Shown: piece by piece, positions 1,169-33,562 of the stretch
Layout of the letters: every line of letters starts with the position of its first letter
How positions within the stretch are numbered: position 1 is the first letter of the stretch
From: Dethiobacter sp.
GTDB taxonomy: Bacteria; Bacillota; Dethiobacteria; Dethiobacterales; Dethiobacteraceae
Direction of reading: 5' to 3'
Length of the DNA stretch: 64,000 bases
Assembly (NCBI GenBank): GCA_020725465.1
Contig: DYEY01000018.1
Coordinates: 1-64,000, forward strand
Notes under the pieces: generated by a model
Seen by the model: the letters and a program-made list of their open reading frames with translations, nothing else
Database searches by the model: none
Told to the model about the DNA's origin: nothing
Program-made: the position numbers and the translations under genes

Positions 1169-1172
1169 TTTA

Positions 1173-3024: not shown

Positions 3025-3036
3025 AAACAAAACTCC

Positions 3037-3121
3037 CTTAAGTGGGTTTGTATTTATTAATCGGATATATTTTGCAATTATTTAGACTTTGTAACAATAA
3101 TGTTATTATTTCCCACTTAAG
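3037..3121 (-). promoter_or_regulatory. Inverted repeat in the cas1 leader region
   Basis: CTTAAGTGGG at 3037-3046 and its exact complement CCCACTTAAG at 3112-3121 flank an AT-rich 65-nt segment. Read on the minus strand, the distal arm runs straight into the AAGGGAG Shine-Dalgarno site of cas1. Base pairing in RNA could mask that site, or the arms could be two half-sites for a DNA-binding repressor. The AT-rich interior probably also contains the cas1 promoter. Confidence 0.5.
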
Positions 3122-3175
3122 TTTTTTATGATTCTCTTCGCAGTTTAGAAAAATAGCCCGCAAATTTTAAGACTG

Positions 3176-5473: not shown

Positions 5474-5521
5474 CTCTTTTTGCCCCGAGCGCCCGCTTTT
5501 GGCAAATATTTTATTCAGAGC

Positions 5522-7356: not shown

Positions 7357-7378
7357 AAATATTTAACCTCCCTAATTT

Positions 7379-8956: not shown

Positions 8957-8999
8957 TAATTTCACCCTTTCTTACCGGGAAATACCAGTGAAAACTTCT

Positions 9000-9950: not shown

Positions 9951-9971
9951 GTTAGCTCCTTTTGTGGAAAA

Positions 9972-11270: not shown

Positions 11271-11271
11271 T

Positions 11272-12210: not shown

Positions 12211-12853
12211 CGAGGCTGAATGGTTTCCCATCGAGAGTCAGCTCCAAAAACTCTATCTTGCCATAACCCCTGGAACCGGAAGCACCCAGGTAATCCTGTG
12301 CCAGCAGCTTTAATCCCCGGCGAAGGAACCCAACCGCATCTTCTTCTCTGTCACCTTCAAAAAGCCTGATGGTCACGGAAAAGCGGAATTCGGTTCCTGC
12401 CGGCACCCGTTCAGTTGTCCTTAATCCGCCCTGGCCGGCCCTGCCCGTCTTTCTGTCGATCCAGTTTTCGTTTTTCAGTTCGCTGAAATGAAGGCCTTTT
12501 TCCTCCTGGGCCAGGCGCAGCTTCTCCTCGGACGACTCTGTAAGAGGGGCATCGCGAAAAATATAACGGGTAGGAGAAGGAGATTTCAGAGAGCCAAAAT
12601 ACAGGCAGACTTTACACGTACCGCAATTATGGGCTCTGCCTGAGGGATCCACGTTGCCGGTAGCCAGTTCCAGCAGGCTCCGTGTTTTGCCTTTCAGCGA
12701 CGAACCAGGGATATAAGGAAGGTCCGTGATTGGGTGGCGGAGAATGGGGCTGTCAATACCTCCAATATCAATGCTGTCCTTTGAGCCGCCGATGCGCAAA
12801 CCGCTATGGCAGCGAATCACCCCTTTTACCTCTTTAAAGCCTGAAAGTTTCAT
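12203..12853 (-). CDS. csm3: Csm3, Cas7-group backbone ribonuclease of type III-A
   Basis: 216 aa from the ATG at 12853, placed after GGAGG and overlapping the csm2 stop as ATGA. Csm3 forms the helical backbone and cleaves target RNA every 6 nt. The family signature LRIGGSKDSIDIGGIDSP includes the catalytic aspartate (D in SKDS). It is followed by RHPITDLPYIPGSSLKGK. A four-cysteine insertion (CGTCKVC) fits the zinc site seen in this family. The C-terminal YLGASGSRGYGKIEF is the glycine-rich loop. All elements for an active RNase appear intact. Confidence 0.94.
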   Translation of the reverse strand: MKLSGFKEVKGVIRCHSGLRIGGSKDSIDIGGIDSPILRHPITDLPYIPGSSLKGKTRSLLELATGNVDPSGRAHNCGTCKVCLYFGSLKSPSPTRYIFRDAPLTESSEEKLRLAQEEKGLHFSELKNENWIDRKTGRAGQGGLRTTERVPAGTEFRFSVTIRLFEGDREEDAVGFLRRGLKLLAQDYLGASGSRGYGKIEFLELTLDGKPFSLDE

Positions 12854-13839
12854 TTTTTCTGCCCTCCTTCGCTTAATCTGCCTTTGCCAAAGGCAATGAG
12901 GCACTGAAAATGCTCCACAAAGGCCTGGAAAGCCTCTTTACTTTGGCAGGCCAGGTTTACATTGCGAGCTATAAAGCCAATAAATTCCCCGGGCACTGTC
13001 TCACGGGCAGCGGCATAAGCTGCGTCCCGTTCAAACGCATACAAAGACGGCAGTATCCGACTAAATTCCGCACCTCCTTTCAGTTTGCCATCCAGCGCTC
13101 TCAATTTGTTATAAAATCGGCGCAGAGCCGTGTTGGTAAGGTTTCTGGCTGCAAAGGTTTCCACCAGAAGCTTCGGCCATTCAATCAGCACTTCCCGGCG
13201 GAGGTGGCCGGTGTTTGTAAAATATCCGCCAGACAGGTATCCTGCCGGCAAACCTCTCCCATCCAGCCAGTAACCGGCGGAAAAATTTTTATCGTTGCGG
13301 GCATAAGCAACAACGCTTTTATAGTGCTCCAGGAAGGAATTAAATGAATCTTCGTCTTTTTGGGCCAGCTCTAGGTTACGCCTGATAAATTCGCAAAACA
13401 CCGGCGGCACCATGTTGCGTGCCCTGGCATACTCAGCGGCCACCTGAAATGCGTTAAGCCTTACCCGGGCTTGTAAAAAATCGTTGGTCTGGGCTAAATT
13501 ATAAAGGATAGCCTGCAGTCTGTTGAGGAAGCTGCGCAAACGGGTTGCCGTCAGCCCTTGCGCACCCAGTACCTCAGCCACATGGCGCGCTTCGCTGCCA
13601 AAAATCTCCCGGCGCATAAGTCCTGCCGTGTCAAAATAACCTTCTCTCAGATAGCGGTCCGACAAGGACACTGCTTTACCTGCAGAGTCTGAGTATGTAT
13701 TATTACTTCTTTGCTTTTTGTTTATCATACTGCATTCCCGGCAACGGCGTGGTTCGCTGAACCCCCTGGCTTTAAATTCTCTTTGTTGGTCTTCAGTAAA
13801 TAAAAACGTTCTCTTGCACTGAATACAGGTAATTATCAC
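12850..13839 (-). CDS. csm2: Zinc-ribbon + tandem double Csm2 fusion (type III-A small subunit)
   Basis: 329 aa, against about 120-150 aa for ordinary Csm2. The GTG at 13839 follows GGAGG and overlaps the cas10 stop as GTGA; an upstream ATG at 13932 lies inside cas10. Residues 5-36 form a zinc ribbon with C5-x2-C8 and C33-x2-C36 around FLFTEDQQREFKARGF, closely resembling the PF13451 probable zinc-ribbon domain. Two copies of a Csm2 domain follow (about 64-180 and 202-318). They align without gaps over 117 positions with about 43 identities by my hand count, sharing GYF, RRE, LT-T-LR, YA-AR, VP and FIxRN elements. Csm2 is the helical small subunit that lines the crRNA-target duplex. Expressing two units as one chain would fix small-subunit stoichiometry. 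Confidence 0.88.
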   Translation of the reverse strand: MIITCIQCKRTFLFTEDQQREFKARGFSEPRRCRECSMINKKQRSNNTYSDSAGKAVSLSDRYLREGYFDTAGLMRREIFGSEARHVAEVLGAQGLTATRLRSFLNRLQAILYNLAQTNDFLQARVRLNAFQVAAEYARARNMVPPVFCEFIRRNLELAQKDEDSFNSFLEHYKSVVAYARNDKNFSAGYWLDGRGLPAGYLSGGYFTNTGHLRREVLIEWPKLLVETFAARNLTNTALRRFYNKLRALDGKLKGGAEFSRILPSLYAFERDAAYAAARETVPGEFIGFIARNVNLACQSKEAFQAFVEHFQCLIAFGKGRLSEGGQKK

Positions 13840-16199
13840 TTTTTTTCCCTCCTTGCCAACAGTGCATAGCGAGCCGTAAACCCAAGGTGGCGGATTGAGA
13901 TGCTTTTTATATCGGTCAGCTCCTGTACCCATCTGAATACCTTTTCAGTTGTCCCGTTTCTTTTCACATTGCGGTTTACGTTATAATTTAAGAGGGACAG
14001 GTATTTTAGACCCTCAATTTGGCCTTTCACTCTAAAGCGGTCATAAAGCCTGGCATATGTTAAGAGGCTCTGTACAAACTGGGAAGAAACAGTTTCCGTA
14101 TTAAGCCATTCGGCCAGTTGTCTGCCCTGTGCCGTCAGGACACCCAGGTCTTCCCATCCAATTGTTTCCCCCAGCAAACAACACTGGTTTTTGCCTTCAC
14201 CGTCCCTTTTAGGCGCTTTATGCTTGGCGGCCTCAAGATTTCTTTCGGCCATTTCAACGCCTAGTGCCACCGGGTAACCCGGCTTAACAACAGCTATACC
14301 AGCGGAAAGGTTGACGCCTGGATTATTACCGGTAAACCTTTTAAATGCAGCTCTGATTTCAGAGGAAAAATCAATTGTATTATCCCAGGGCCCCAGCGCC
14401 AGCAGGTCGTCTCCTCCTGCATATACAAGGTAAATATTAGGGAATCTTTCCCTGATCAGGCTGGTCAGCCAACCGGTGAAGAATGATTCCAGCATACGGC
14501 TTAAGGTAGCTGTCCGGGAAATAGTGTCCCGGCTAGCCAGCCCGATGCTGAACAGGGCGCCAAGGTCATCCACGTCCGCCTTAACAATGCCTATCATTTT
14601 TTTACCTGTGGCAAGAGCTGCCAGGCTGTCAAAGTCCTGCACAACACCATTGGCAACAGGAACGTAGCTTCCAAGACAAACCCGGCTTACGCTAAAATTT
14701 TTCCATTCGTCCAGGTTCCCTTCGCTGTCTACATGGACAGCTAAAACACCGTCCGAATTTTCAGGAACATTTTTTGAAAGTACCGCCCAGGTATCTCCCG
14801 GGAGAGGAATGGCTTTTTTGTCGTCAGGTTGTGCCAGGCAGTAAACGACAGCCTTTACTTCCGGCAGAATTGTCCCTAGAGTCAAGTCCTGCAAACAAAG
14901 GCTGCACAGCTTATCTTTCATGGCCATATCAGCAACAGGGAGCTTATTGCATGAGCGGCAATATCCGGAAGTGCCGACCATAGCTTTATCAAGGACAAAG
15001 GTGCTTTCTTTCCATTTTGATTCCGAATCAAACAGAATCTCATGCAGCGGGTTAAGTTTGGCGTAAGACAATTTCTCTCTGGCGCGGAGCACGATCTGTC
15101 CATAATTTTTTAGGTCTTCGCCGCAAAAAGTCACCGCAGAAAGGTTTAAAAACAGCTCTCCGCCAAATTTGCCAAGAAAGTCTTCTGCCATTTTGGTTTT
15201 TATAGATTTAAGATACTCAAAGGTTCCTACAGTGTTTGGCAGAATCAGATAGAAATTGCCTCCGGAATGAGATGCTATGTTTGCTGTGGTCAGACCAAGG
15301 TCATATACTATCTTCTGGGCCAGTCCGGAGGTAATCATGCTCAAATAGAAGGACCTGGCCCTCAGCCTTTTTGCTACTCCTCCTGTGCCTATATTGGCGA
15401 TACCGAAAATATATCTTTGAATTCCGGTCAAATCACCTGTCAGCAGGACAAACTTTTCTGTCCGGTCATTTAATATTGCCCGCTCCGAAAAATCTTCCGT
15501 TTCCTCATGGTACCTAAACATAGCGCCGGCAATGGCTGCAGTGGTACGCAAGTGGTCATAGAGTGAAACATCGGGCAGGGCTTCAAGCGTACTGGCTGGC
15601 AGGCACCAGCAATAATCTTCAAGACAGGCCAGCAGGTGGGAAAAGAATACCTGAAACGTAGGCCATTTTACTTTGCTTAGTTCTTTCATTCTGTTGCCGA
15701 AATTTTTTATATGGGCTGACATTTCCGCCGGGTTAACCTTTTCTTCAGTGTGTGGGAAAATGCTTTTAACAGAAAATTTACCTGGTTTATAATAAGAAAT
15801 CCCAGGCTTATTATTGTCAAAGGCAACCGAAGAAAAAACGGAAGCCTGTGCCCTGGTGCGGTAATAACCGCTTCCTTTTTCGCTGTCTCTTTCCGCTGCT
15901 GAATAATTGTCGGCGCGGCTTATCAGAAAGCAGATGTTTCTGAATTCAGGTGGCGCGTTATGCGCACGCAGGTGCTCAGGAAAGCTGCTGGATTCATGAT
16001 GCCTGGTTACAGCTGACTCCAGCATTTTTAAATCAACCCACGGGGAAAGGAAATCGCCCCAGGTTGCAATAAACTGTCCTGACAGCTCAGGGTGTTGCCC
16101 TTTCAGACTTAAAGAGCCAAAATCTCCTCTTTGCAAAACCTTGCCTATGTCGTGCAGCAGCGCACCGAGCAAAACCGTCTGGTATGTTTTAATATTCAA
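13836..16199 (-). CDS. cas10: Cas10/Csm1, large subunit of type III-A with HD and Palm domains
   Basis: 787 aa, normal for Csm1. On target RNA binding, Cas10 cuts ssDNA with its HD domain and makes cyclic oligoadenylates with its Palm domain. The HD pair is H16-D17 (LLHDIGK) with a second histidine pair in TRHHESS. A zinc finger CRSCNKL...LCSLC lies near residues 412-433. The cyclase motif GGDD is intact at 595-598 (YAGGDDLL). Both activities therefore look functional, in keeping with the downstream CARF-HEPN effector. It starts 18 bp after the WYL regulator and is coupled to csm2. Confidence 0.96.
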   Translation of the reverse strand: MNIKTYQTVLLGALLHDIGKVLQRGDFGSLSLKGQHPELSGQFIATWGDFLSPWVDLKMLESAVTRHHESSSFPEHLRAHNAPPEFRNICFLISRADNYSAAERDSEKGSGYYRTRAQASVFSSVAFDNNKPGISYYKPGKFSVKSIFPHTEEKVNPAEMSAHIKNFGNRMKELSKVKWPTFQVFFSHLLACLEDYCWCLPASTLEALPDVSLYDHLRTTAAIAGAMFRYHEETEDFSERAILNDRTEKFVLLTGDLTGIQRYIFGIANIGTGGVAKRLRARSFYLSMITSGLAQKIVYDLGLTTANIASHSGGNFYLILPNTVGTFEYLKSIKTKMAEDFLGKFGGELFLNLSAVTFCGEDLKNYGQIVLRAREKLSYAKLNPLHEILFDSESKWKESTFVLDKAMVGTSGYCRSCNKLPVADMAMKDKLCSLCLQDLTLGTILPEVKAVVYCLAQPDDKKAIPLPGDTWAVLSKNVPENSDGVLAVHVDSEGNLDEWKNFSVSRVCLGSYVPVANGVVQDFDSLAALATGKKMIGIVKADVDDLGALFSIGLASRDTISRTATLSRMLESFFTGWLTSLIRERFPNIYLVYAGGDDLLALGPWDNTIDFSSEIRAAFKRFTGNNPGVNLSAGIAVVKPGYPVALGVEMAERNLEAAKHKAPKRDGEGKNQCCLLGETIGWEDLGVLTAQGRQLAEWLNTETVSSQFVQSLLTYARLYDRFRVKGQIEGLKYLSLLNYNVNRNVKRNGTTEKVFRWVQELTDIKSISIRHLGFTARYALLARREKK

Positions 16200-19961: not shown

Positions 19962-21032
19962 TTATTTCTGAGGGACCTTTTTATACATGGAGGGGAACCA
20001 GTCCCGGGTTCGCAGGCAGATGCGGACCAGGAACAGCATGACCGGCACCTCGATGAGCACGCCCACCACGGTGGAAAGGGCGGCACCGGAGGTGAGACCG
20101 AAAATGGTGACAGCGGTGGCGATGGCCACCTCAAAGTGGTTGCTGGCACCGATCATGGCACTGGGAGCGGCTTCTTCATAGGTGAGGCCCAGCAGCTTAG
20201 CAGCAATATAGGCGATAATAAAGATAAATACGGTCTGTATAAAGAGGGGCACCGCGATCATACCCACTACCAGGGGAAATTCAAGGATCACGCTACCCTG
20301 GAGCATGAAGAGGAATATAAGGGTCAAAAGAAGGGCAATAATGGAAATGGTGCCCATGTTTTTCAGGAAAGTACCTTCATACCAGTCCAGTCCACGGGAC
20401 CTGATCAGGCGGGTACGGCTGAAATAACCGGCAACAAGAGAAACACCGACGTAGAGCAGTACGCTGAGGAAGATGGTCATGAAGGGAACCACCATGTCGG
20501 CTACGCCCAGGAGGAAGTTGCCCAGCGGGGCATAAAGGACCAGCATGGTCAGGGAGTTGATGGCCACCATTACCAGGGTCAGGCCCATAAAACCGCGGGC
20601 CAGGTAACTCCATACCAGGACCATGGCGGTACAGGGGGCGATACCCAGCAGGATCATGCCGGCTATGTACTGCGAAGCCAATTCGGCATCAATGAAAGGC
20701 GCCCAGATGATGCGCATAAAAAGCCAGGCGAAAAAGAACATGGTAAACGGCTTGATGGCCCAGTTGACAATAAGGGTAAGCAATACAGGTTTTGGTGCCT
20801 TGACGGCGTTGACCACTTCACCAAAATCAATCTGTACCATAATGGGATACATCATGGCAAAGAGGAAAACGGCTACAGGAATGTTTACAGAAGCCACCGC
20901 CAGTGAATTCAGGAACCGGGCAGCAGCAGGAAAAGCGGCTCCTAGACCGATACCGGCCACAATGCAAAGAGCCACCCAAAGGGTAAGGTATTTATGAAAG
21001 AAACTCAGGCTGTATTCTTTTTGTGTATCCAT
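19962..21032 (-). CDS. acr3: Acr3-type arsenite efflux permease
   Basis: 356 aa with about 10 membrane helices. Acr3 (BASS superfamily) exports As(OH)3 or antimonite using proton-motive force. Family signatures are LLGIAPCTAMVLVWSYLARG, containing the essential cysteine in helix 4, and GASNHFEVAIATAVTIFG in helix 9. It follows a thioredoxin-like gene by 10 bp and probably forms a two-gene operon with it. No arsR or arsC is present nearby, which is unusual for an arsenic operon. Confidence 0.93.
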   Translation of the reverse strand: MDTQKEYSLSFFHKYLTLWVALCIVAGIGLGAAFPAAARFLNSLAVASVNIPVAVFLFAMMYPIMVQIDFGEVVNAVKAPKPVLLTLIVNWAIKPFTMFFFAWLFMRIIWAPFIDAELASQYIAGMILLGIAPCTAMVLVWSYLARGFMGLTLVMVAINSLTMLVLYAPLGNFLLGVADMVVPFMTIFLSVLLYVGVSLVAGYFSRTRLIRSRGLDWYEGTFLKNMGTISIIALLLTLIFLFMLQGSVILEFPLVVGMIAVPLFIQTVFIFIIAYIAAKLLGLTYEEAAPSAMIGASNHFEVAIATAVTIFGLTSGAALSTVVGVLIEVPVMLFLVRICLRTRDWFPSMYKKVPQK

Positions 21033-21041
21033 GATTCACCT

Positions 21042-21281
21042 CTAAAGTTCTTCTTTAATCCATTTTATTATTTCTTCCCGGCGGGGGATCCGGCCGTAGA
21101 CTTTAACCCTATCGTTGATAACCAGCCCCGGCGTACCCATTATATCGTACTCCATGATTTGGTTTAAATCAGTTACTTTTTCCACATCAGCGGCAACATC
21201 CAGTTCAGAAAGAGCGTTTATCACTGCCGACTCAAGCAGGTTGCAGTTCCTGCACCCCTTGCCCAGTACCTTAATTTTCAT
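21042..21281 (-). CDS. Small thioredoxin/glutaredoxin-like protein (MTH895/TM0996 type)
   Basis: 79 aa from the ATG at 21281, preceded by AAGGAGG. It has a redox motif C-x2-C (GKGCRNCNLLES) and the cis-proline loop MGTPGLVIND. This family of minimal thioredoxins is frequently encoded with arsenite permeases or PF03773 permeases. It could supply electrons for arsenate reduction or maintain permease thiols; this is inference. It begins the acr3 operon. Confidence 0.85.
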   Translation of the reverse strand: MKIKVLGKGCRNCNLLESAVINALSELDVAADVEKVTDLNQIMEYDIMGTPGLVINDRVKVYGRIPRREEIIKWIKEEL

Positions 21282-21305
21282 GGCAGGCCTCCTTAGCTGT
21301 GTGTT

Positions 21306-21325
21306 GTATGAGCATATTATCATAC
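21306..21325 (-). promoter_or_regulatory. Candidate operator of the thioredoxin-acr3 operon
   Basis: GTATGA (21306-21311) and TCATAC (21320-21325) form a perfect inverted repeat with an 8-bp AT-rich centre. It overlaps the expected transcription start of the promoter described at 21331-21366, a classical repressor position, possibly for an ArsR-type regulator encoded elsewhere. Confidence 0.45.
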
Positions 21326-21330
21326 GTTTA

Positions 21331-21366
21331 TATACTAGCATAATCTGTGAGCGGTGGCAACTAAAA
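21331..21366 (-). repeat. 36-bp direct repeat, copy 1 (promoter-like)
   Basis: This 36-nt sequence is identical to 23163-23198. On the minus strand it contains TTGCCA (21355-21360), a 17-bp spacer and TAGTAT (21332-21337), a good -35/-10 pair. Transcription from here would enter the thioredoxin-acr3 genes with a leader of about 45 nt. Confidence 0.75.
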
Positions 21367-21435
21367 AAAAACAACCAACCATATGCTTGGGCTGGAGCTT
21401 TTTATGACCATTCCGGCACTTTTTGCGGTAAAAAG

Positions 21436-23206: not shown

Positions 23207-24190
23207 TCAGCTCACAGTGCAGTTTCGCCTGATCTGGCAGGCCACTTCAAACCAGACGATTGAACCGTGAAAATCACACTTCATTTCAGCGCGGATGTTA
23301 CCATCTGAATTCCGCACCAGATCACTGATGTCCGGCCAGTTGGAGAGGACCATATCGGCCAAAGAGCCCATATCTTTCTTAGTAACCTTCAGATAATTCT
23401 GTGCCGGTCCGTTGGCGTCCACAAGTTGGTTATGCCGGTCAAAAACCAATATTCCGTCAGGCAGGCTCTGATACAGGGTTCTCAGGGCAATGGGGACCAG
23501 GCTGAAAAGCTGAAATTTAAATAGCGCCAGAAAAAATAAGACTCCGCTTAAAGTCAGGGCGAAAGGCGCCAGGTCCAAAACCCAGGCACCCTGCCTGGTC
23601 TGGTAAATCAGATGCGCGGCCCAGGGAATAAGGGAAGCTGTTACTACCGCCGCAATCTGTCTATGATATATACGGGAAGAGTTAAGCCACATCTGTATGA
23701 AGAGAACATTACTGTAAACAGTGGCCAGACCCATATAAGCGACATAAACCCAGTACCAGGGTCCACGCGTAAAAGATATAACAGGGAAAGGTCCTGCAGT
23801 ATTAAGCTGGATGTTCCGGTAAAACAGCTCATGGCTCCCGGCGGACCAGACCAAAAACAGGGTGACAAAAGGGATAAAAAAGATTGCCGCCAACGTAAAC
23901 GCTGAAAGCCTGCGGCTTCTTCCAGTATAACTGAGGGCAAAAATAATAAGGAAGGCAGGAATCATGGAGATACCCAGGTATTCAATTTTTAAGTACAATA
24001 AAATATTCGGCAAAGAATACGAAGAAATTTCAAACGTGTACCCCAGGGCATAAACAGCACCCGCCAGGGAGAGAAGAGCAAAAGGCCTGGCTCCGGGGAT
24101 ATCATGACGCCGCCAGGCAAACAGGGCCAGCATTGACCCGATTCCGGCAGCGCAAAAAACAGGGACAGCAACGATATTGAGAGTCAACAC
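23207..24190 (-). pseudogene. Truncated 7TM-PAS sensor protein
   Basis: 327 aa from a GTG. Seven hydrophobic helices occupy about residues 5-225 and match the N-terminal 7TM sensor module of histidine kinases and GGDEF proteins (LEYLGISMIPAFLIIFALSYTG-like core). A PAS domain follows (SLPDGILVFDRHNQLVDANGPAQ, about 240-320). The reading frame ends right after VWFEVACQIRR, where a PAC segment and a kinase or cyclase domain would normally continue. The stop falls within a hairpin containing the 36-bp repeat. I therefore regard it as a broken gene, although a stand-alone sensor is possible. Confidence 0.6.
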
Positions 24191-24649: not shown

Positions 24650-25378
24650 TTATTTTGCCTCTTCCTTTTTCTGTTTGCGCTGGGTCAGGGCCACCAATAT
24701 GATGCCGATTTCATAAAGGACCAGAAGCGGCGCCGACATCATCAGCTGGGAAAAAACGTCAGGAGGGGTAATAATCGCTGCCACTATAACAATGACCAGC
24801 AGGGCGTATTTCCGGTTTTGGCGCAGGAATCCGGCCGACACCAGGTTGAGCTTGCCCAGGAAAAGGAAGACCAGCGGCAGTTGGAAGACAAAACCGAAGG
24901 CAAACAGAAAGTTGGTGGCAAAAGCCAGGTAATTGGAGATGGTAAACATGGGGGTCAGCCCTTCGGCGGCAAACTTCAGGAAAAAAGTAATGGCAAAGGG
25001 CAGTACGGTAAAATAAGCAAAAGCCACACCAAGGGTAAACAGCACAAACATGGCTATAACTGTGGGTATAATCACCCGCTTTTCCTTTTTATACAGGGCG
25101 GGAGAAATGAAAAGCACCAGCTGGGTGAAGATAAGCGGCATGGCAAAAGCAAAGCCGGCGATAAAAGCCATTCTGATATTGGCCATCAGCGCTTCCGGGG
25201 GAGTTACGTAAATCAGCTGCAGATCTCCACCTGGCCGGGTGATAAAATCACGCAGGCGGTCAACAAAGATAAAACTGACCACTGCAGCCACCAGGACACC
25301 GGCAGCGCAAATAACCAGACGGACCCTTAATTCCTCCAGGTGGTCAAACAAGTCCTGCCCGCTTTTCTTTTTCTTCAT
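24650..25378 (-). CDS. tatC: TatC twin-arginine translocase subunit
   Basis: 242 aa with six membrane helices. TatC is the receptor for twin-arginine signal peptides. Conserved N-terminal elements are present: FDHLEELRVRL in the cytoplasmic start and the periplasmic YVTPPEAL loop, plus FxxGFxFxLPL-like sequence in helix 4 (FAFGFVFQLPLVF). It lies downstream of a Tat-dependent molybdoenzyme and its partners, suggesting a dedicated translocase, although a terminator-like hairpin separates it from the ferredoxin gene. No tatA is visible in the window. Confidence 0.93.
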   Translation of the reverse strand: MKKKKSGQDLFDHLEELRVRLVICAAGVLVAAVVSFIFVDRLRDFITRPGGDLQLIYVTPPEALMANIRMAFIAGFAFAMPLIFTQLVLFISPALYKKEKRVIIPTVIAMFVLFTLGVAFAYFTVLPFAITFFLKFAAEGLTPMFTISNYLAFATNFLFAFGFVFQLPLVFLFLGKLNLVSAGFLRQNRKYALLVIVIVAAIITPPDVFSQLMMSAPLLVLYEIGIILVALTQRKQKKEEAK

Positions 25379-25558: not shown

Positions 25559-26284
25559 CTATTTACCTTCTTTTGCTTCCACTTCTTTAACCCGTTCGCT
25601 GTATCTGGCCAGACCTGCCCCACCGATTGCCGCCGCTATCATCACGCCACTAAACGGAGACGCCAGCCAGTTCAGTGAGCTGACATCGAAACCGTCCGTC
25701 GGCAGCCCGAAGTCTTTTGGATCGCCGTCAATTATCAGCATCACGCCGGTGCTGTCCTTCCCGAACAGGGCAGCCTTTGTCCTGCCGGCGGCTTTCAGGG
25801 CTTTGACCCGGGCCTGGGCGTCAGCAATGAGCTTGTCACGCTCACCAAAGGCAATGGCACCGACCGGGCAGGCATCGGCACAATAGGTGGTTTTACCCCG
25901 GAGCACCTGTTTGTCGCAGAAGGTGCATTTTTCCGATTTGCGGCGTTTGTCGTCTATCTCCGGTGCGCCAAAGGGGCACGCCCGGACACACATGCCGCAG
26001 CCGATGCAGGTTTCAATATCAATATCCACCATGCCGCCGTTGCTGCCTTCCACCCTGAAAATGGCCTTGACGGGACAGGCGGGCAGGCACTTGGGCTCAA
26101 AGCAGTGCATACAGGCCTGCTTGCGGTAGGCCAGCCTGACATTGGGGAACGTTCCGGTCTGGTATTCCAGCATCCTGGTACGCAGAACACCAAAGGAGGC
26201 TTCTTCATAACGCCCTTTACAAGTAACCGTACAGGCGCTGCAACCAATGCACCTGGTCTGGTCTATAACCATCGCGTATTTCAT
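25559..26284 (-). CDS. Four-cluster ferredoxin subunit of a molybdopterin oxidoreductase (PsrB/PhsB-like)
   Basis: 241 aa. Four [4Fe-4S] motifs are visible: CIGCSACTVTC at residue 12, CMHCFEPKCLPACP near 52, CIGCGMCVRACP near 86, and CTFCDKQVL...CADACP near 115-133. This is the electron-transfer subunit of the DMSO-reductase family. Unlike most relatives it ends with a single membrane helix (about 205-225, SGVMIAAAIGGAGLA), and no NrfD/PsrC-type membrane subunit gene follows. The ATG follows AGGAGG. It starts 22 bp after the catalytic subunit. Confidence 0.9.
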   Translation of the reverse strand: MKYAMVIDQTRCIGCSACTVTCKGRYEEASFGVLRTRMLEYQTGTFPNVRLAYRKQACMHCFEPKCLPACPVKAIFRVEGSNGGMVDIDIETCIGCGMCVRACPFGAPEIDDKRRKSEKCTFCDKQVLRGKTTYCADACPVGAIAFGERDKLIADAQARVKALKAAGRTKAALFGKDSTGVMLIIDGDPKDFGLPTDGFDVSSLNWLASPFSGVMIAAAIGGAGLARYSERVKEVEAKEGK

Positions 26285-26305
26285 AATTATCTTCCCTCCT
26301 TATCC

Positions 26306-28573
26306 CTAGGCTTTGTATACCTTTACACACATATCGCTCATCAGACCGCTCAGGGTGGGGTCTTTCCGGTCAGCCAAGGCTTTGGCGCTCAGGTCATAAA
26401 CCAGGTCACCCTCGTTGCCTCCCACACCGTAGGCCAGGGGCAGGTCTTTGGACCAGTGGCCGAAGCCGTGCCAGACGCAGACGGTGTCGGGGCGGATGCC
26501 GGGAACCACGTGCGCCTTGACTTTAATCTTGTTGATTTTGGATTCGACCCAGACGTCATCGCCGTTCTTGATACCCAGGTCCGCGGCAGTGACAGTGTTT
26601 AAAATGACCGGGCATTCCGGCGCCACCTGCATCACCAGTTCGTTGTTATGGCTTTCCGACATCCTGTGCGCGGCATGGCGGGTAATTACCATGTAAAGCG
26701 GGTAATCCTTGGAGGGCTTTTCTTTCTTCTCCTTCCAGGCCGGGAAGGGATCAAAACCGTTGTCCTGCAGTTTCTTTGAATAAAGCTCTATTTTCTTGCT
26801 TTCGGTGCCGAACTCTTCCCTGCCGGTAAAGGGTTTGGGGTCACCAAGCAGGCCGTTCGGACTGGCCTTCAGCTGGTCCAGGGAATAACCGTTGGCTTTC
26901 AGCTGTTCGTCCATCAGCCTGATGCCGTTTACGCCGTCGGGGAAATAATCACCCAATCCCATGGCCTTGGCGATGCCGATGACGATGGAACCGAAGCCCT
27001 TGTAGTCGCCCAGTTTTTCAATGACCGGCGCAGAGTAGGCCACCTGCGGGTAATGGGCGTTATAAGTACGGTTAGACATGGCCTCCACTTCCATGAAGTG
27101 GGGCTCCGGAAAGACCACGTCGGCCATCTGGACAATTTCGGTCGGCATGATGTCAGCTACCGCAATAAACTCCAGTTTTTTCAGGGCTTCGACAAAGCGC
27201 GGCGCGTTGGGGAAACCGAGAACATTGTATTTCCTGACAAACAGACCTTTAAGAGGATAAGGCTTCCCGCTCAGGATAGCGTCAGCCAGTACCACGTTGC
27301 CATATTTGGCGGTGGAACCAAACAGCTTGTTCTTTTCACCGCCGTCAAACCGCCCTGCAGTGTTTTTGGGATACTCGGGCGGCGGGAAGACGGTATCGAG
27401 GTTGGGCAGCTTCATATTGCGCTCAAATATTACCCCGCCGGGGCGGTCAATGGCGCCCACCAGGGCGTTCAGGATAATGAAGCCGTAAGCCACTCGCCAG
27501 CCGTTGTCGTAGTTGGGGCCGCCGGCATCGCGCTTGTGGCTGGGGATAACAGCCGGCTTGGTAGTGGCGAATTCCCGGGCGATGCGGGTGATGGTGGCGG
27601 CATCCACATCGGTGATACCGGCCGCCCATTCGGCGGTATAGGATTTCACCGCTTTTTTCAGGTCTTCGATGCCTGTTGTATATTTCTCAACATAGTCCTT
27701 GTCGTACAGGTTTTCTTCGATGATGATATTGATCATGGCCAGGATGAAGGCCAGGTCAGTACCGGGCTTGATGGGAATCCACTCGTTGGCCATGGCACCG
27801 GTGGCGGTCAACAGCGGGTTCACCACCACCGCCTTGGCGCCTTTGGCCAGCGCATTTACATACTGGCGGGCAGCCATGTTCTTGCCCTTAGAGGGCTGGT
27901 CCCAGCCGAAGGAAAGGATGTATCTGGCGTTTTCCAGGTCGTGAGTCCAGGGGCGGGCGGTACCGCTGACCGTTACTCGCCACATGGCGTCGTGGGTAGT
28001 GTAGCAGGTATCGTGGTGCCGGCTCAGGTTGGGGGTACCCATAGCCTTGGCCCAGCGGACAGCAAAGTCCTGCGGGCGGCAGGCAACCACAATTGATTCC
28101 GGCCTGTACTTGGCTGACAGTTCTCTGAACCTGTCACCGGCCAATTTGAAGGCTTCTTCCCAGGAAATTTTGACAAAACCAGGGTCCACGCCGGGGCCTT
28201 TTTCCGGGTTGGTCCGCTTCATGGGGAATTTCAGGCGTTGCGGGTCATAAACCATCTTCCAGGCAGAATATCCCTTGACGCAGAGCTTGCCCCGTCCCAC
28301 CTGGTCGTCCGGGTTGCCCTTTATGGCCACAATTTTGCCGTCCACAATCTGCGCCTTCATGGCGCAGTTGGCGCTGCAGACGTTACAGAAGGTGTGCTTT
28401 TCGGTAACCACCGGTTCCGGCGGTAGTTCAGGTTCTTTCGGCGGTTCCGGCGGCGGGGGCGTGGTGGTCGTCTTTTGCTGACAACCTACCAGGAAGTGGC
28501 TGGCTGCTCCCACGGCGCCGGCCGCGGCTGCGGCCTTTAGGAACGACCTCCTGCTTAACTTTTTCTTGTCCAA
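26306..28573 (-). CDS. Tat-exported molybdopterin oxidoreductase, DMSO-reductase family (Psr/Phs/Arr-like)
   Basis: 755 aa from a TTG at 28573 (6 nt after GGGAGG), which places the twin-arginine signal SRRSFLK at residues 7-13. The signal ends in a lipobox-like LVGC (C31), followed by a proline/threonine-rich linker (35-54). One [4Fe-4S] site is C63, C66, C70 and C98. The likely molybdenum ligand is C190 in RHHDTCYTTHD. The C-terminal MPT-binding domain (about 630-755) is complete. The family includes polysulfide, thiosulfate, tetrathionate, selenate and arsenate reductases; the substrate cannot be fixed, though neighbouring YedE and TusA genes favour sulfur or selenium compounds. Its 5' end overlaps the chaperone gene by 146 bp. 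Confidence 0.9.
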   Translation of the reverse strand: MDKKKLSRRSFLKAAAAAGAVGAASHFLVGCQQKTTTTPPPPEPPKEPELPPEPVVTEKHTFCNVCSANCAMKAQIVDGKIVAIKGNPDDQVGRGKLCVKGYSAWKMVYDPQRLKFPMKRTNPEKGPGVDPGFVKISWEEAFKLAGDRFRELSAKYRPESIVVACRPQDFAVRWAKAMGTPNLSRHHDTCYTTHDAMWRVTVSGTARPWTHDLENARYILSFGWDQPSKGKNMAARQYVNALAKGAKAVVVNPLLTATGAMANEWIPIKPGTDLAFILAMINIIIEENLYDKDYVEKYTTGIEDLKKAVKSYTAEWAAGITDVDAATITRIAREFATTKPAVIPSHKRDAGGPNYDNGWRVAYGFIILNALVGAIDRPGGVIFERNMKLPNLDTVFPPPEYPKNTAGRFDGGEKNKLFGSTAKYGNVVLADAILSGKPYPLKGLFVRKYNVLGFPNAPRFVEALKKLEFIAVADIMPTEIVQMADVVFPEPHFMEVEAMSNRTYNAHYPQVAYSAPVIEKLGDYKGFGSIVIGIAKAMGLGDYFPDGVNGIRLMDEQLKANGYSLDQLKASPNGLLGDPKPFTGREEFGTESKKIELYSKKLQDNGFDPFPAWKEKKEKPSKDYPLYMVITRHAAHRMSESHNNELVMQVAPECPVILNTVTAADLGIKNGDDVWVESKINKIKVKAHVVPGIRPDTVCVWHGFGHWSKDLPLAYGVGGNEGDLVYDLSAKALADRKDPTLSGLMSDMCVKVYKA

Positions 28574-29261
28574 ATTTCTCCCTCCCAGTTTTCTTTTGAT
28601 TTGATTCCTGCGGCTTTTCTTCTCCAAAGGCCTGATTGTCAAGCGTCAGCAGCCCATCCAGGAGTTCTGACACCAGCCAGTAAAAGTCTTCACCGCAGCA
28701 CTTGCCCCGGATGTCGCAAGCCAGCTGATACGCCCACCTGTTCAGGTGTGCAATCAGGAATTCGCATTGAATGGCGAGCAGGTCCTGCCTGCTCCCCTTG
28801 CCTGCAGCGGCAGTCATATAGGCGAGACTGGACATAAATCCCAGCTCAACAGCAATATGGTCTTCCGGGTGCAGCTCCGCGGTGTCTTTTTCCAGGCCAA
28901 GATTGCGGTAGAACTGCCTCACCTTCTCCCAGGGTTTATCCATAAGCAGATTCTGATTGCCCAGATAAATCGACTCATAGGGGTGAACACCACCAGGGAG
29001 CAGGAACAGGCGCGCGTACGCTTTCTGTAATTCCAACTCCTGGTACGCATCAGCTTTCTGCCAGGCGGCAGTTACCGCTGCCAGTGCGGTACTTACCCGC
29101 GGAGCTTCCGGTAAATCCAGTCGGGCAAGATGTGAGGTCAGGATGGCCAGGTCCTCCGCATTCATAATTCTCTGCATTTTTTCCAGTGTAAAATGATCCC
29201 GGAAAGACGTAGACAGGAAGGCATATAAAAAGGCCCGCCCTCTACTGGTAAGCCAATCCAT
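28428..29261 (-). CDS. TorD/DmsD-like molybdoenzyme maturation chaperone
   Basis: 277 aa from the ATG at 29261; a TTG at 29288 is also possible. TorD-family proteins bind Tat signal peptides and the apo-molybdoenzyme until cofactor insertion. The all-helical body (about residues 1-200) contains YARLFLLPGGVHPYESIYLG and the ELHPEDHIAVELGFMSSLA signature (E-P-D-H box). The last 48 or so residues are low-complexity and basic, and are read from the same DNA that encodes the signal peptide of the downstream oxidoreductase in another frame. This tail is probably an extension rather than a domain. Confidence 0.85.
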   Translation of the reverse strand: MDWLTSRGRAFLYAFLSTSFRDHFTLEKMQRIMNAEDLAILTSHLARLDLPEAPRVSTALAAVTAAWQKADAYQELELQKAYARLFLLPGGVHPYESIYLGNQNLLMDKPWEKVRQFYRNLGLEKDTAELHPEDHIAVELGFMSSLAYMTAAAGKGSRQDLLAIQCEFLIAHLNRWAYQLACDIRGKCCGEDFYWLVSELLDGLLTLDNQAFGEEKPQESNQKKTGREKFGQEKVKQEVVPKGRSRGRRRGSSQPLPGRLSAKDDHHAPAAGTAERT

Positions 29262-29436
29262 GCTGTGGCACGAACCTCCAAAAGACAAGCAACCATCCCC
29301 TCTCTGTAAGTTGCAGCTGTTTTTCTGTTTTGGTTTTTGCTCTCACCTCGCCAAAGCTATATAGATACGGTAATGTGAATGTTCTCACCTGATAATTCGG
29401 ATAAAAAATCAGGTTCCCTGCCATGAAAAAAAGCAC

Positions 29437-29637: not shown

Positions 29638-30810
29638 TTATTCCACTATAAAGCGTAATAAATATTTGCCGCCCAGATAGGCGCCCGGTAAAATCGCCAG
29701 GCCGAACAGCCAGCCGTGAAGCGACAGGGAGGCCGTACCGGAAAGGAGCGCCCCGATATTGCAGCCCATGGCAATTCTGGAGCTGTAACCCATAAGGAGT
29801 CCACCGGCCAGGGCTGACAGCACATATTTATAATTACGCGGGCGGCGCAGGCGGAACTCGCTCCGGCTGAGACTGGCGTAAAGTGAACCGGTTATCATGG
29901 CAAAAGACAGATAAATCAGCGGGTGCCTGAGAAATACCTGCTGCCCGAAGCCTTCAAGCAGGTTCGCCCTTTGAAAAAACTCCCAGGAAAAAGGCGACAG
30001 GCCTGCCATGCTGCTTAACCAGCCGCTGAAACTGGTAAGTCCTGATGTTATGCTCCAGGGGCGGCCCCAGGACCAGAAGAGAGCGGTATTGGCGGCGGCA
30101 AGGGCGGCCGCTCCCGCCGGGTACGTCCACTTGCGCCCGCCAGACATGGATTTTAGGTCAGGCTTTAAGGAAAAAGCGCCGCCGCCGAACCGGAGGGCCA
30201 GCAAATATAACGCGGCAAGGGCCAGGTATTGTAGTAGGTAGGCGCCGGTCCAGCCCAGGCTGCCGGGCAGGAAGACCGTTGGGGACCCGGCAATGGTAAA
30301 ACGGTACCAGAATCCCAGGTTCCAGGCGCCGGCCGCGGAGCCTGTCAGAATACCCAGGAACGTTACCCACTGCATGATATACCCTTCCCCCATGCGCACC
30401 AGGCATCCGGAAACGCAGCTGCCGGCAATGACCATACCAAACCCGAATAATATTCCTCCCACCAGGGTATGCAGCCCCACCGGGTATACCTTCCCCATTG
30501 TCGGCAGGTCAACGGCCCCAAGCAGCTGCAAAATGCCGAAACCCATGGTGGTCAGCGCTATCGCCAGAAGCACCGCCCGGGTTAAAGCGGTGTTTCTGAT
30601 CATGAAAATATCCCTGAAACCGGCGGCAAAGCAAAAAGCGGAGCGCTGCATTATATAACCAAACGCCAGCCCAAACAAGTAAGGAAGCGCCGCGTTTGCG
30701 TTGCAGGCCCGCACCAAGACGGCCGCACAGGCGGACAGTACCGCGACGGCCAGGGCAAGCCGTGGCTGATTTTTTTTCTTCCGGACAAGCGTTGTGACAG
30801 GTTGAGTCAT
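29638..30810 (-). CDS. yedE: YeeE/YedE-family sulfur-compound transporter
   Basis: 390 aa with about 10 membrane helices in two pseudo-repeats. YeeE/YedE proteins import thiosulfate, and some occur with selenium-metabolism genes. Characteristic cysteine motifs are visible: QRSAFCFAAGFRD (near residue 56), GSCVSGCLVRMGEG (near 131) and RIAMGCNIGALLSG (near 350). These cysteines pass the substrate through the membrane in characterised homologues. The gene is divergent from a LysR regulator, and a TusA-like protein, the usual partner, is encoded just beyond that regulator. Confidence 0.88.
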   Translation of the reverse strand: MTQPVTTLVRKKKNQPRLALAVAVLSACAAVLVRACNANAALPYLFGLAFGYIMQRSAFCFAAGFRDIFMIRNTALTRAVLLAIALTTMGFGILQLLGAVDLPTMGKVYPVGLHTLVGGILFGFGMVIAGSCVSGCLVRMGEGYIMQWVTFLGILTGSAAGAWNLGFWYRFTIAGSPTVFLPGSLGWTGAYLLQYLALAALYLLALRFGGGAFSLKPDLKSMSGGRKWTYPAGAAALAAANTALFWSWGRPWSITSGLTSFSGWLSSMAGLSPFSWEFFQRANLLEGFGQQVFLRHPLIYLSFAMITGSLYASLSRSEFRLRRPRNYKYVLSALAGGLLMGYSSRIAMGCNIGALLSGTASLSLHGWLFGLAILPGAYLGGKYLLRFIVE

Positions 30811-30925: not shown

Positions 30926-31852
30926 ATGGACCTGAGTTCATTAAAGGCATTTTGCACTGTGGTTGAGACGGGAAGCATATCCAAGGCCGCCAAAAAACTG
31001 TTCATCACCCAACCGGCGCTTAGTGTAAAGATACAGGGGCTGGAAAAGTATTATAAGGAACCACTGCTGGAGAGAACAAACAAGGGTATCAGACCCACGG
31101 AAACAGGGACCCTCGTTTACAGCCAGGGGCAAAAGGCTCTTACCATTCTGGAAAACATTGAACGGGAGATAGAGAGAAAGCGTAACCCGGTTAAAGAACT
31201 GGTGGTAAGCGCTGCCAGCACAATTGGCAATTACGCCCTTCCCTGCACTGTTTACGTTTTCAGTGAACGGTACCCTGACTACAAGATTTCACTGGACATC
31301 AGCAATTCACAGGGAGTAATTGACAAAATTCTAAACAGAACCGTGGAAATGGGACTGGTGGAAGGGCCGCTCAGCGAAACAGAGCAGGTCTCCCTGTCTC
31401 AGGAAGGCATAAAAACAAAGATTGTTGCCAGAAACGAACTGTTTTTGATTGTACCTTACAACGACCGCTTCAGGGAGAAAAAAACCATTTCCCTGGAAGA
31501 GGTTAAACAACTGCCCCTTATTGTAAGGGAGAAAGGATCCGGCATCAGAAAAACCCTGGAAGTAACCCTGGCTCAAAAAGGTTTCAGCCTGGATGACCTG
31601 AATGTTGTCATGGAGCTGAATACCATCAACTCGATAAAATCGGCGGTGGCGGCCAATAAAGGGGTTACTTTTCTGCCCAAAATGGCAATCCGCAAAGAAC
31701 TGCACTACAGGATGCTAAAAGCGCTGACGGTGGAAGGTATGATATTTCACCACGACTTTATCCTGCTTTACACCAGCAACAGCGAAACAGGACGCCCACC
31801 TTACAATGCTTTTTTAAAGTTCATCCAGTCCAAGGACCGCAATTTCTGCTAA
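30926..31852 (+). CDS. LysR-family transcriptional regulator
   Basis: 308 aa. The N-terminal winged helix-turn-helix (residues 1-60, SISKAAKKLFITQPALSVKIQGLEKYY-type pattern) is typical LysR. The effector domain from about residue 90 starts with ELVVSAASTIGNYALP, as in CysB/Cbl-like and selenium-metabolism-associated LysR proteins. It is transcribed divergently from yedE and convergently with a TusA-like gene, so it probably controls the sulfur or selenium transport genes. ATG at 30926 follows a GGAAAGG site. Confidence 0.88.
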   Translation: MDLSSLKAFCTVVETGSISKAAKKLFITQPALSVKIQGLEKYYKEPLLERTNKGIRPTETGTLVYSQGQKALTILENIEREIERKRNPVKELVVSAASTIGNYALPCTVYVFSERYPDYKISLDISNSQGVIDKILNRTVEMGLVEGPLSETEQVSLSQEGIKTKIVARNELFLIVPYNDRFREKKTISLEEVKQLPLIVREKGSGIRKTLEVTLAQKGFSLDDLNVVMELNTINSIKSAVAANKGVTFLPKMAIRKELHYRMLKALTVEGMIFHHDFILLYTSNSETGRPPYNAFLKFIQSKDRNFC

Positions 31853-32079
31853 ACGGTTTTTTCTATTATAATGCGCCAGATGCCTTCGTCTTCTTCCAGT
31901 ACTGTACAGAGATAACCGTACTTATCCTTAAAATGGCATGAAACACTGGCAATGGAACAGCTGTGGTCTGTTAACAGGACTACCCGGTCCCGCGGCTTCA
32001 GCTGTTTTAATTTCTTTTCCGCCCTGACAATCGGAATCGGGCACATCTCACCCAAAGCATCGATAAAATGGTCTGCCAC
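31849..32079 (-). CDS. TusA/SirA-family sulfur-carrier protein
   Basis: 76 aa from a GTG at 32079, giving the usual N-terminus VADHFIDALGEMCPIP; an upstream TTG at 32109 would add ten residues. The CPIP motif carries the persulfide-bearing cysteine. TusA-like proteins partner YeeE/YedE transporters to accept sulfur from imported thiosulfate, or take part in selenium metabolism. It overlaps the lysR 3' end by 4 bp on the opposite strand. Confidence 0.88.
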   Translation of the reverse strand: MADHFIDALGEMCPIPIVRAEKKLKQLKPRDRVVLLTDHSCSIASVSCHFKDKYGYLCTVLEEDEGIWRIIIEKTV

Positions 32080-32191
32080 CGGCCACACCCCGTTACAATA
32101 ACGTATCAATTATAGCCATTTAAAATAATCATGTTGCTTAATTCTGCACACGTCCCTGATATTCCTTCACCGTTCAGACCGCAAAGCCAAA

Positions 32192-33364
32192 TTACTGTCC
32201 CGCTATAAATCCGTAGATCAGACCGCTTAAGGTGGCCATAACTATCACCAGTGATACAAAAATAACAGTCTTTCTGGTTCCGATTATGCTGCGGATAACC
32301 AGCATGTTGGGCAGGCTGAGCGCGGGACCCGCCAAAAGCAGCGCCAGGGCCGGACCCTGGCCCATACCGGCGCCCAACAGGCCCTGCAGTATCGGTATTT
32401 CGGTCAGGGTGGCAAAATACATGAAGGCACCGGCCACCGCCGCCAGCAGGTTGGCCACCGGCGAATTGCCGCCGACAAGGCCGGCAACATACTTTGTGGG
32501 TATCAAACCGGCCTCCGTCCCTGGCCGGCCGAGCAGGAAGCCGGCGAACATTACCCCCACAAACAGGAGGGGAAGAATCTGTTCCGCAAAGCCAAGGCTG
32601 GAGGTTACCCAGGAAGACCGTTCCCACCGGTCGAACCACCGGATCAGGATTAATACCAGAGCTGCCAGCAAGGCCGCTGTCAGGTACCATTTTACGCTAA
32701 AGATTGCGGCAAAGAAGCCGATAGGTTCAGAAGGACGCCCCCAGGCAGCAAATATCAGGATTAAAACCAGAACAAGAAAGTAAATGGCATTTTGAACCGG
32801 GGTACGCTTCTCTTCAGGGGTGCCGGCGGTGGCAGTTGAACAGGGCCGGTTCTCCTCATCCTGCCGGCAGATAAAAGCCATAAGCAGGCCGATTACCGTG
32901 GCAAACAGTACGGCTCCCACCGCCCTGGCCACCCCCAGCTGCCAGCCCAGCACCCTGGCGGTCAAAATAATGGCCAGGATATTAATGGCCGGCCCGGAGT
33001 ACAGAAAAGCGGTAGCCGGTCCGATCCCGGCCCCCCGCTTGTAAATACCGGCGAAAAGCGGTAATACGGTGCAGGAGCAAACGGCCAGCAACGTCCCTGA
33101 CAAAGACGCCACGGTGTAGGAAACCCATTTTTTCGCCCCGCCGCCGAAATACCTGATCACCGCGGCCTGGGAGACAAAACTGCCGATGGCGCCGGCTATA
33201 AAAAAGGCCGGAATCAGACAAAAAAGCACATGCTCCCTGGCATACTCCTGCAACAGCAAAAATGACTCCAGGATAGCCCCCTGCAGCCGGGGATGGCCCA
33301 GGGGAGCAAAGTAAGCGGCCAAAAAAACGGCTAATATCGCCGCCAGCCTCTGCCATTGTTTCAC
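32192..33364 (-). CDS. PF03773 (ArsP_1/YraQ-type) permease
   Basis: 390 aa from a GTG at 33364 after GGAGG; the frame is open upstream to 33433. About 8-10 membrane helices in two halves. The first-half signature LLAVCSCTVLPLFAGIYKRGAG with paired cysteines, then ATAFLYSGPAINILAI, defines the family. A partial second copy lies near residues 300-350 (FMYFATLTEIPILQGLLGAGMG). Members export organoarsenicals, metals or are uncharacterised. With acr3 and thioredoxin 11 kb away, an arsenic or redox role is possible but unproven. A charged cytoplasmic loop lies near residue 180. Confidence 0.85.
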   Translation of the reverse strand: MKQWQRLAAILAVFLAAYFAPLGHPRLQGAILESFLLLQEYAREHVLFCLIPAFFIAGAIGSFVSQAAVIRYFGGGAKKWVSYTVASLSGTLLAVCSCTVLPLFAGIYKRGAGIGPATAFLYSGPAINILAIILTARVLGWQLGVARAVGAVLFATVIGLLMAFICRQDEENRPCSTATAGTPEEKRTPVQNAIYFLVLVLILIFAAWGRPSEPIGFFAAIFSVKWYLTAALLAALVLILIRWFDRWERSSWVTSSLGFAEQILPLLFVGVMFAGFLLGRPGTEAGLIPTKYVAGLVGGNSPVANLLAAVAGAFMYFATLTEIPILQGLLGAGMGQGPALALLLAGPALSLPNMLVIRSIIGTRKTVIFVSLVIVMATLSGLIYGFIAGQ

Positions 33365-33562
33365 GTTCAGACGCCTCCGGTATTTTATTTTTATATTATA
33401 ATTTACTGATATATTATCTCTCCGGATAAGCACCTGTCAACAGCGGATATTTTAATGTTGCCACTGGGAAACTGGGAAAGATTGCCCATAGCCAGATTTG
33501 GCGGATTATGTTAAAATATAAGGGAATTATAGGCAAAATTCGCCAAGCTTTCGCCAGAAAGG

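Follow-up and report, generated by a model that had tools for sequence, protein, structure and literature searches.

A predicted lipid-tethered molybdoenzyme without a quinol-oxidising subunit in a Dethiobacter genome, and its possible quinone-free electron supply

How does an exported molybdoenzyme receive electrons when no membrane subunit that oxidises quinol is encoded with it? The question is raised by two adjacent genes at positions 25559-28573 of a 64,000-nucleotide (nt) stretch of Dethiobacter sp. DNA (GenBank assembly GCA_020725465.1, contig DYEY01000018.1), the whole of which is called the window here. An earlier note on this DNA had located, at coordinates that proved right, a lipoprotein-like catalytic subunit (A) and a self-anchored ferredoxin (B), and had proposed a tethered reductase or oxidase on the outer face of a Gram-positive membrane, fed by an unusual route. 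Their features are as follows.

25559-26284, minus strand: ferredoxin subunit B, 241 amino acids (aa), four Cys clusters, no signal peptide (Pfam Fer4_11 and others)
25607-25666, minus strand: C-terminal helix of B (residues 207-226), rich in Gly and Ala, with a basic tail after it (from the sequence)
26306-28573, minus strand: catalytic subunit A, 755 aa, a molybdenum-bis(pyranopterin guanine dinucleotide) (Mo-bisPGD) enzyme with an N-terminal 4Fe-4S site (Pfam PF04879, PF00384, PF01568)
27527-27538, minus strand: HKRD motif of A, residues 346-349, in which R348 aligns with R332 of polysulfide reductase (PSR)
28004-28006, minus strand: Cys190 of A, the Mo ligand by alignment with PSR Cys173 and the ArrA Cys
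28400-28480, minus strand: Pro/Glu/Thr-rich tether of A past Cys31, about residues 32-58 (from the translation)
28481-28552, minus strand: twin-arginine translocation (Tat) lipoprotein signal of A, RRSFLK...FLVGC, with Cys31 last (from the translation)

The Tat signal ending in LVGC, Cys31 and the proline-rich tether that had been described are all seen in the translation of A, whose N-terminus reads RRSFLKAAAAAGAVGAASHFLVGC, Cys31 and then QQKTTTTPPPPEPPKEPELPPEP. The start codon is TTG at 28573, with GGGAGG 7 nt upstream by eye. Both the RR motif and the lipobox Cys of a Tat lipoprotein are present, and the Pfam TAT_signal profile scores 22.9 bits against a cut-off of 22.7. The lipobox pattern was found in eight of the nine members of the focal clade defined below and in none of the 30 rows that make up the Rnf, RnfAct and PhsA-like groups, these rows being kin and hence not independent, and the PhsA-like ones including L159, a sequence that falls in the outer, HKRD-side clade of the trees. 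Elsewhere it appeared in 1/10 ArrA rows, which count the window genome's own gene twice (L047 and L163), and in 6/66 other rows, among which the matches in L077, L078 and L092 resemble Fe-S Cys residues and not a lipobox. The clade member that lacks the lipobox Cys (L053, 1776-4789, in a Desulfonatronovibrio-labelled record) has Ser there (TGSKG). The AlphaFold2 (AF2) model of A has a predicted local distance difference test score (pLDDT) of 85.8, with low confidence at residues 12-50 (signal and tether), and its closest solved structure is PSR (2vpw_A). From the signal we infer that A is lipid-anchored at Cys31.

B starts with ATG at 26284 (GGAGGG 9 nt upstream, by eye). The ferredoxin said to be self-anchored does have its four clusters and a C-terminal helix, yet the hydrophobicity of that helix is moderate (Kyte-Doolittle 1.56 for the C-terminal 19-mer, with a range of 1.00-1.59 over the nine clade members), and the AF2 model has low confidence there. 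The solved structure closest to this model is FdnH (1kqf_B), which is anchored by its C-terminal helix (PMC10924467; papers cited by PMC number are represented throughout by excerpts of their text). The same excerpts describe C-tailed ferredoxins that are carried through Tat together with a partner protein, which in one case is a Tat lipoprotein. B shows the pattern of such a Tat hitchhiker, having no signal of its own, a partner (A) with a signal and a C-terminal helix. We consider an exported, lipid-tethered AB architecture highly probable from these sequence features.

Six relatives in the same class share 53-67% identity with A. Together with L053, L056 and the window's A they form the focal clade of nine sequences (99 in the Shimodaira-Hasegawa-like approximate likelihood ratio test, SH-aLRT), in which the gene order torD-A-B is kept at all nine loci; TorD of L042, L014, L040 and L046 was assigned in a separate test. 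A Mo enzyme of two subunits, tethered outside the membrane, is thus upheld as a conserved trait of this clade; the Gram-positive nature of the membrane follows from record names only. One member (L056) lies in a Dethiobacter-labelled metagenome-assembled genome, unlike what is reported for Dethiobacter alkaliphilus, described in excerpts as lacking molybdopterin-containing complexes that reduce sulfur or thiosulfate (PMC10376724).

The place of A among known families was examined with two trees, both from a quick search with SH-aLRT support and no bootstrap. The first covered 65 catalytic sequences out of 115 extracted (without L074, L083, L084, most of L089-L131 and others), and the second 41 of those sequences plus PSR, with ArrA set as outgroup. 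In the second tree, the solved PSR and the PhsA-like rows form one clade (SH-aLRT 100) and focal A falls in another (99); in the first, ArrA forms a further separate clade (100) with focal A outside. On curated models A reaches 421.5 bits for PhsA (cut-off 694) and 209.7 bits for ArrA (cut-off 1600), and the formate dehydrogenase (FDH) models on A and B give 243 bits (TIGR01591, cut-off 666) and 125.6 bits (TIGR01582, cut-off 334.7). Membership of A in Psr/Phs and in ArrA was rejected on both score and clade, and FDH on the 243 bits. Of the phylogeny that the earlier note had called for among Psr, Phs, Srd, Arr and Ttr, the part covering Psr, Phs and Arr puts A outside the Psr/Phs clade with the solved PSR and outside Arr; on the TtrA model A scores 74.8 bits (cut-off 1750).

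The HKRD motif is present in the focal, Rnf, RnfAct, L057, L061, L062, L066 and Hecatellales rows and absent from L070, L071, L072, L077, eight PhsA-like rows, PSR and six ArrA rows. The idea that it marks the outer clade throughout was rejected, since L070 and L072 have YKRG and L071 and L077 have HKKT, and it marks the inner part only. An ArrA-like active site was considered for A, since in the alignment H186 and R166 lie close to ArrA residues; neither residue is diagnostic, His being found at 186 in 6/8 and Arg at 166 in 2/8 PhsA-like rows. A belongs to a sister family of Psr/Phs that has several alternative electron partners: NrfD in a Hecatellales archaeon (L075), cytochrome b561 (L062, L070, L072), RnfC with RnfD, or none seen. 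A lipid-tethered, anchor-less member of this family would be a new variant, for which a quinone-free electron supply is plausible but unproven.

The window's genome is 2.91 Mb and 98.17% complete and was compared with 11 others (89-98% complete where stated), eight of the 12 bearing the focal clade. The reported lack of an NrfD/PsrC gene held up: PF03916 matched 0/12 genomes and 4/14 control genomes, the DmsC (PF04976) and NrfD_2 models not being searched. A distant PF03916 gene in the window's genome was rejected, as the genome-wide profile search was empty. No polytopic gene lies between torD and B in the focal-clade loci, and among the seven loci with more than 2 kb past B a polytopic gene comes next only in the window's, where it is TatC. 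The contigs of L042 and L014 end less than 350 nt past B (349 and 233 nt), and NrfD absence there refers to the genome-wide search only. The membrane gene beside a DmsA-like enzyme of the window's genome (L048) proved to be like a phosphotransferase system EIIC protein. For quinone synthesis, MenD was above its cut-off in 0/12 genomes (all 12 gave weak matches below it; 7/14 control genomes pass) and MqnA in one of 12 (G024). Both are missing from seven of the eight focal-clade genomes, the window's among them. UbiA-type genes are above cut-off in 8/12 genomes (7/8 with the focal clade), with no match in the Natronincola, Tindallia and Anoxynatronum genomes.

A candidate route comes from the nearest relatives. 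The sister clade of the focal clade (SH-aLRT 97 in the first tree, 96 in the second) has RnfC and RnfD within 10 kb of A-B at seven of its eight loci, the eighth (L074) ending inside A, and so do 3/3 RnfAct loci (labelled Actinomycetota-type); neighbour counts cover 84 loci, with L076 left out. The window's genome itself has a sister paralog without a lipobox in the order rnfC-rnfD-torD-A-B (L040; G000 contig 44, 54001-74000). Its RnfC and RnfD score 508 and 282 bits, above their cut-offs, and no RnfG, RnfA, RnfE or RnfB was seen by eye beside them. This genome also has an Rnf cluster (L134), and focal B and the Rnf-linked B of L040 and L046 have similar C-terminal helices. The unusual route of the earlier note can thus be put more sharply: RnfC and RnfD accompany the sister clade, and the window's genome shows neither MenD nor MqnA. 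In G041 (L046) torD-A-B, FDH, rnfC and rnfD form a same-strand array with RnfCD nearer to FDH and 7-8 kb from A, and this RnfCD may serve both enzymes.

RnfC carries both 4Fe-4S motifs in the six sequences examined, and RnfD carries the A-T/S-P-L segment in 11/11, the window genome's own Rnf cluster included. In L060 and L081 A-S-P-L replaces A-T-P-L; we take the Thr to be the covalent flavin mononucleotide (FMN) site, so that Ser is odd there. Structures of RnfD, as excerpted from PMC12174285, have FMN facing outward and riboflavin facing the cytoplasm, the latter passing electrons to RnfC. Because of this arrangement, RnfC and RnfD alone may be a transmembrane wire, and an exported ferredoxin could replace RnfG. 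In the excerpts of open-access texts no link between RnfC/RnfD and a molybdopterin oxidoreductase was found, and "RnfCD", where met, stood for rnfCDGEAB or rnfCDEAB.

Other arrangements around RnfC and RnfD were also seen. Stretch L049 (6020-11679, G000 contig 9) encodes an FDH-N-type alpha subunit with an in-frame TGA, RnfD upstream, and a C-tailed ferredoxin and a second TatC downstream; an FdnI-type gene was not seen by eye in it. In Natronincola peptidivorans (L058, 13105-16185), a complete FeFe hydrogenase fused to RnfC lies downstream of the molybdoenzyme A-B genes, and L085 resembles this fusion by length and Cys count.

The neighbouring genes bear on the substrate. The earlier note had omitted torD, TatC, the YedE, LysR and TusA genes and the arsenic genes of the window, which are listed here.

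19962-21032, minus strand: ACR3 arsenite efflux pump (TIGR00832, 371 bits, above cut-off 282.8); near 4/9 focal-clade loci
21042-21374, minus strand: ArsE/MTH895-type thioredoxin (TIGR00412, 95 bits, above cut-off 62); 4/9 loci
24650-25378, minus strand: TatC (TIGR00945, 208 bits, above cut-off 132.7)
28428-29288, minus strand: TorD/NarJ-type chaperone, torD (PF02613, 88.8 bits)
29638-30810, minus strand: YedE-like sulfur/selenium transporter (PF04143, 192 bits); 5/9 loci
30926-31852, plus strand: LysR regulator, divergent from yedE (NF040786, 225 bits, cut-off 250); 5/9 loci
31849-32109, minus strand: TusA-like sulfur carrier (PF01206); 4/9 loci
32192-33433, minus strand: ArsP-type permease (PF03773, 241 bits); 4/9 loci

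The last 146 nt of torD (28428-28573) are shared with the start of A, and the encoded TorD has 286 aa, against 225-258 aa in the eight clade relatives.

Some ars gene (ArsR, ArsE, ArsP, ArsC or ACR3) is near 5/9 focal loci, 0/8 sister loci and 13 of all 75 non-focal loci (Fisher 0.019 for focal versus other loci, with kin loci treated as independent). ACR3 is near 4/9 focal versus 4/52 distant loci and YedE near 5/9 focal loci versus 0/75 others. At L054 and L063 B is followed, in the same orientation, by the whole arsenic set, and at L056 by ArsR and ACR3. In the excerpted literature, YedE, a LysR subfamily and YedF-type proteins are linked to selenium (PMC5322559), and YeeE/YedE transporters with TusA also to the import of sulfur species and thiosulfate (PMC11582611). 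This mixture of ars, YedE, LysR and TusA neighbours suggests a sulfur, selenium or arsenic species as the substrate of A. A separate ArrAB-like pair in the same genome (L047; ArrA-like 1182.9 bits, under the cut-off of 1600) means that plain arsenate respiration may already be covered. This pair (6666-9954, G000 contig 52) has a lipobox-like Tat signal (MVSAGC), and no adjacent anchor gene was seen. Thioarsenate would be a speculative substrate, PMC6620896 discussing in its excerpts the chemistry only for other enzymes.

These observations can be put together in one scheme. A and B would fold with their cofactors in the cytoplasm with the help of TorD and leave jointly via Tat, B as a hitchhiker. 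A would then be lipidated at Cys31 and the helix of B inserted into the membrane, which would place AB at the outer face and bring its last Fe-S cluster close to the membrane. Electrons would pass from the NADH side to RnfC, to the riboflavin and then the FMN of RnfD, to B and finally to A, whose Cys-ligated Mo would reduce an extracellular sulfur, selenium or arsenic species. The RnfD-type donor would act in trans for the focal clade and in cis for the sister clade, with no NrfD-type quinol oxidase; in some hosts multihaem cytochromes may feed AB instead. The gene layout, its conservation, the empty NrfD search and the RnfC and RnfD genes beside the sister clade are read directly from sequence, whereas export, lipidation, direction, substrate and donor are inferred. 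Taken whole, we hold this scheme to have slightly less than an even chance. As to its parts, a reductase of sulfur, selenium or arsenic species is as apt to be right as wrong, and the RnfD-type donor is a tentative proposal, on the doubtful side. A bolder form, in which RnfC and RnfD are a stand-alone quinone-free module that replaces NrfD/PsrC and AB plugs into it in trans via the helix of B and reduces a chalcogen or arsenic compound (most boldly thioarsenate), appears rather unlikely.

Several observations weigh against the RnfD-fed reductase. At none of the nine focal loci do RnfC and RnfD occur in the surrounding 10 kb, or as far as the contig reaches. In favour of a donor in trans, an RnfD gene is present in 7/8 of the focal-clade genomes searched, a count for which the class-wide Rnf base rate was not measured; against it, G034 (90% complete) has the enzyme and no RnfD match. 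The helix of B is clearly less similar in Rnf-linked L058, L059, L060, L081 and L085. The tree leaves an ancestral RnfCD unsettled; its loss in the focal clade was not kept as an explanation, since the branching order of Rnf, RnfAct and L057/L061/L062 has weak support and independent gains fit equally. On the substrate side, ars genes are also near those 13 other loci and are missing at 4/9 focal loci, namely L014 and L042, with their short contig ends, and L053 and L055, which are not so cut. The genome of the window also has two NapC-type (PF03264) loci, a cytochrome b561 and two MenA-like UbiA-type genes, which bear on the alternatives below.

The NapC-type loci would fit a CymA-like route, in which an outer-face NapC/NrfH-type or larger multihaem cytochrome feeds AB, as for Shewanella ArrAB, with any quinol or extracellular electron transfer as the source. 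They lie within a multihaem cluster (L171, G000 contig 70) whose proteins have 12, 17, 12 and 6 CXXCH motifs; excerpts also report that ArrAB without ArrC uses CymA (PMC2500031) and that CymA-like proteins are likely quinol oxidisers in D. alkaliphilus (PMC10376724). However, PF03264 is found in just three of the eight focal-clade genomes (G000, G024, G030; 3/12 overall), which rules it out as the general donor, and the joint lack of MenD and MqnA from most of these genomes also speaks against the route. We regard this route as unlikely. An ordinary quinol-linked enzyme with a distant or unrecognised membrane subunit and salvaged menaquinone would be favoured by the incompleteness of the genomes and by the UbiA-family genes. 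The two in the window's genome, the second of them scored as a 240-aa fragment, reach 92 and 98.5 bits on TIGR00751 (cut-off 102.15) and 122 and 110 bits on NF004751 (cut-off 264), so that they are near one cut-off; quinone salvage in this genome is possible. However, the searches for NrfD, within the models named above, and for a polytopic gene from torD to B were empty, and cytochrome b561 is found in 3/12 genomes (the window's own, G024, G034), adjoining in the window's genome genes that by eye resemble a NiFe hydrogenase operon. A quinol-linked enzyme of this kind seems to us quite improbable.

The same low probability is given to an oxidase, in which AB would take electrons from an outside donor (arsenite, a sulfur species or similar) and pass them via RnfD and RnfC to NAD+. 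PSR, PhsA and ArrA, its kin of known activity, work as reductases, and the ACR3 and ArsR neighbours suggest that arsenite is an exported product and not a donor. In favour of inward flow, FDH lies beside RnfD in the window's genome and in G041, most simply read as flow from formate, and Rnf runs in both directions (PMC12174285, excerpts).

Single features of the RnfD-fed, tethered AB have counterparts in known systems. PsrABC and PhsABC share with it the Mo-bisPGD subunit with a Cys ligand, Tat export, the four-cluster ferredoxin and the closest solved fold, whereas focal A is in a separate clade with HKRD and a lipobox, has a PhsA score under the cut-off and lacks an NrfD subunit. Arr enzymes often occur without ArrC (PMC2500031, excerpts); ArrAB of this kind also has two subunits and Tat export, and some have lipobox-like signals (the window genome's own copy on contig 52 (C52), and L161), whereas focal A is in another clade, scores 210 bits and lacks two motifs seen in the ArrA rows, RGRY and CAEA. 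Escherichia coli FDH-N (FdnGH(I)) and other C-tailed Tat hitchhikers likewise have a B subunit with a C-terminal helix and no signal, but FdnGH works with the cytochrome b FdnI and A is no FDH. The Tat-lipoprotein FeFe hydrogenase of Desulfotruncus and others combines a lipid-anchored catalytic subunit with a C-tailed hitchhiker ferredoxin, but it is a different enzyme and has a HybB-type quinol oxidase (PMC10924467, excerpts). Of the Rnf complex, RnfC and RnfD are the proposed wire and are not encoded with the focal operon. Since C-tailed hitchhikers and Arr without ArrC are known, "unusual" is too strong for any single feature.

Elsewhere in the window, positions 23207-24190 encode an N-terminal seven-transmembrane region like that of histidine kinases and a PAS domain, Pfam showing no kinase domain before the open reading frame ends. 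Two 40-nt direct repeats with a spacing of 75 lie at 22-136, and beside them (about 257-16199) are genes resembling CRISPR-Cas by eye (Cas4, Cas1, Cas3, Cas10-like and a WYL regulator).

A conserved clade without a quinol-oxidising subunit, the lack of MenD and, for the most part, of MqnA in its hosts, and an Rnf-linked sister clade point to respiration-like chemistry outside the cell that would draw its electrons directly from NADH or ferredoxin, perhaps coupled to Na+ or H+. If true, this would be a quinone-free way of powering exported molybdoenzymes, and quinone-free anaerobic respiration would become testable in Natronincola peptidivorans and Anoxynatronum buryatiense.

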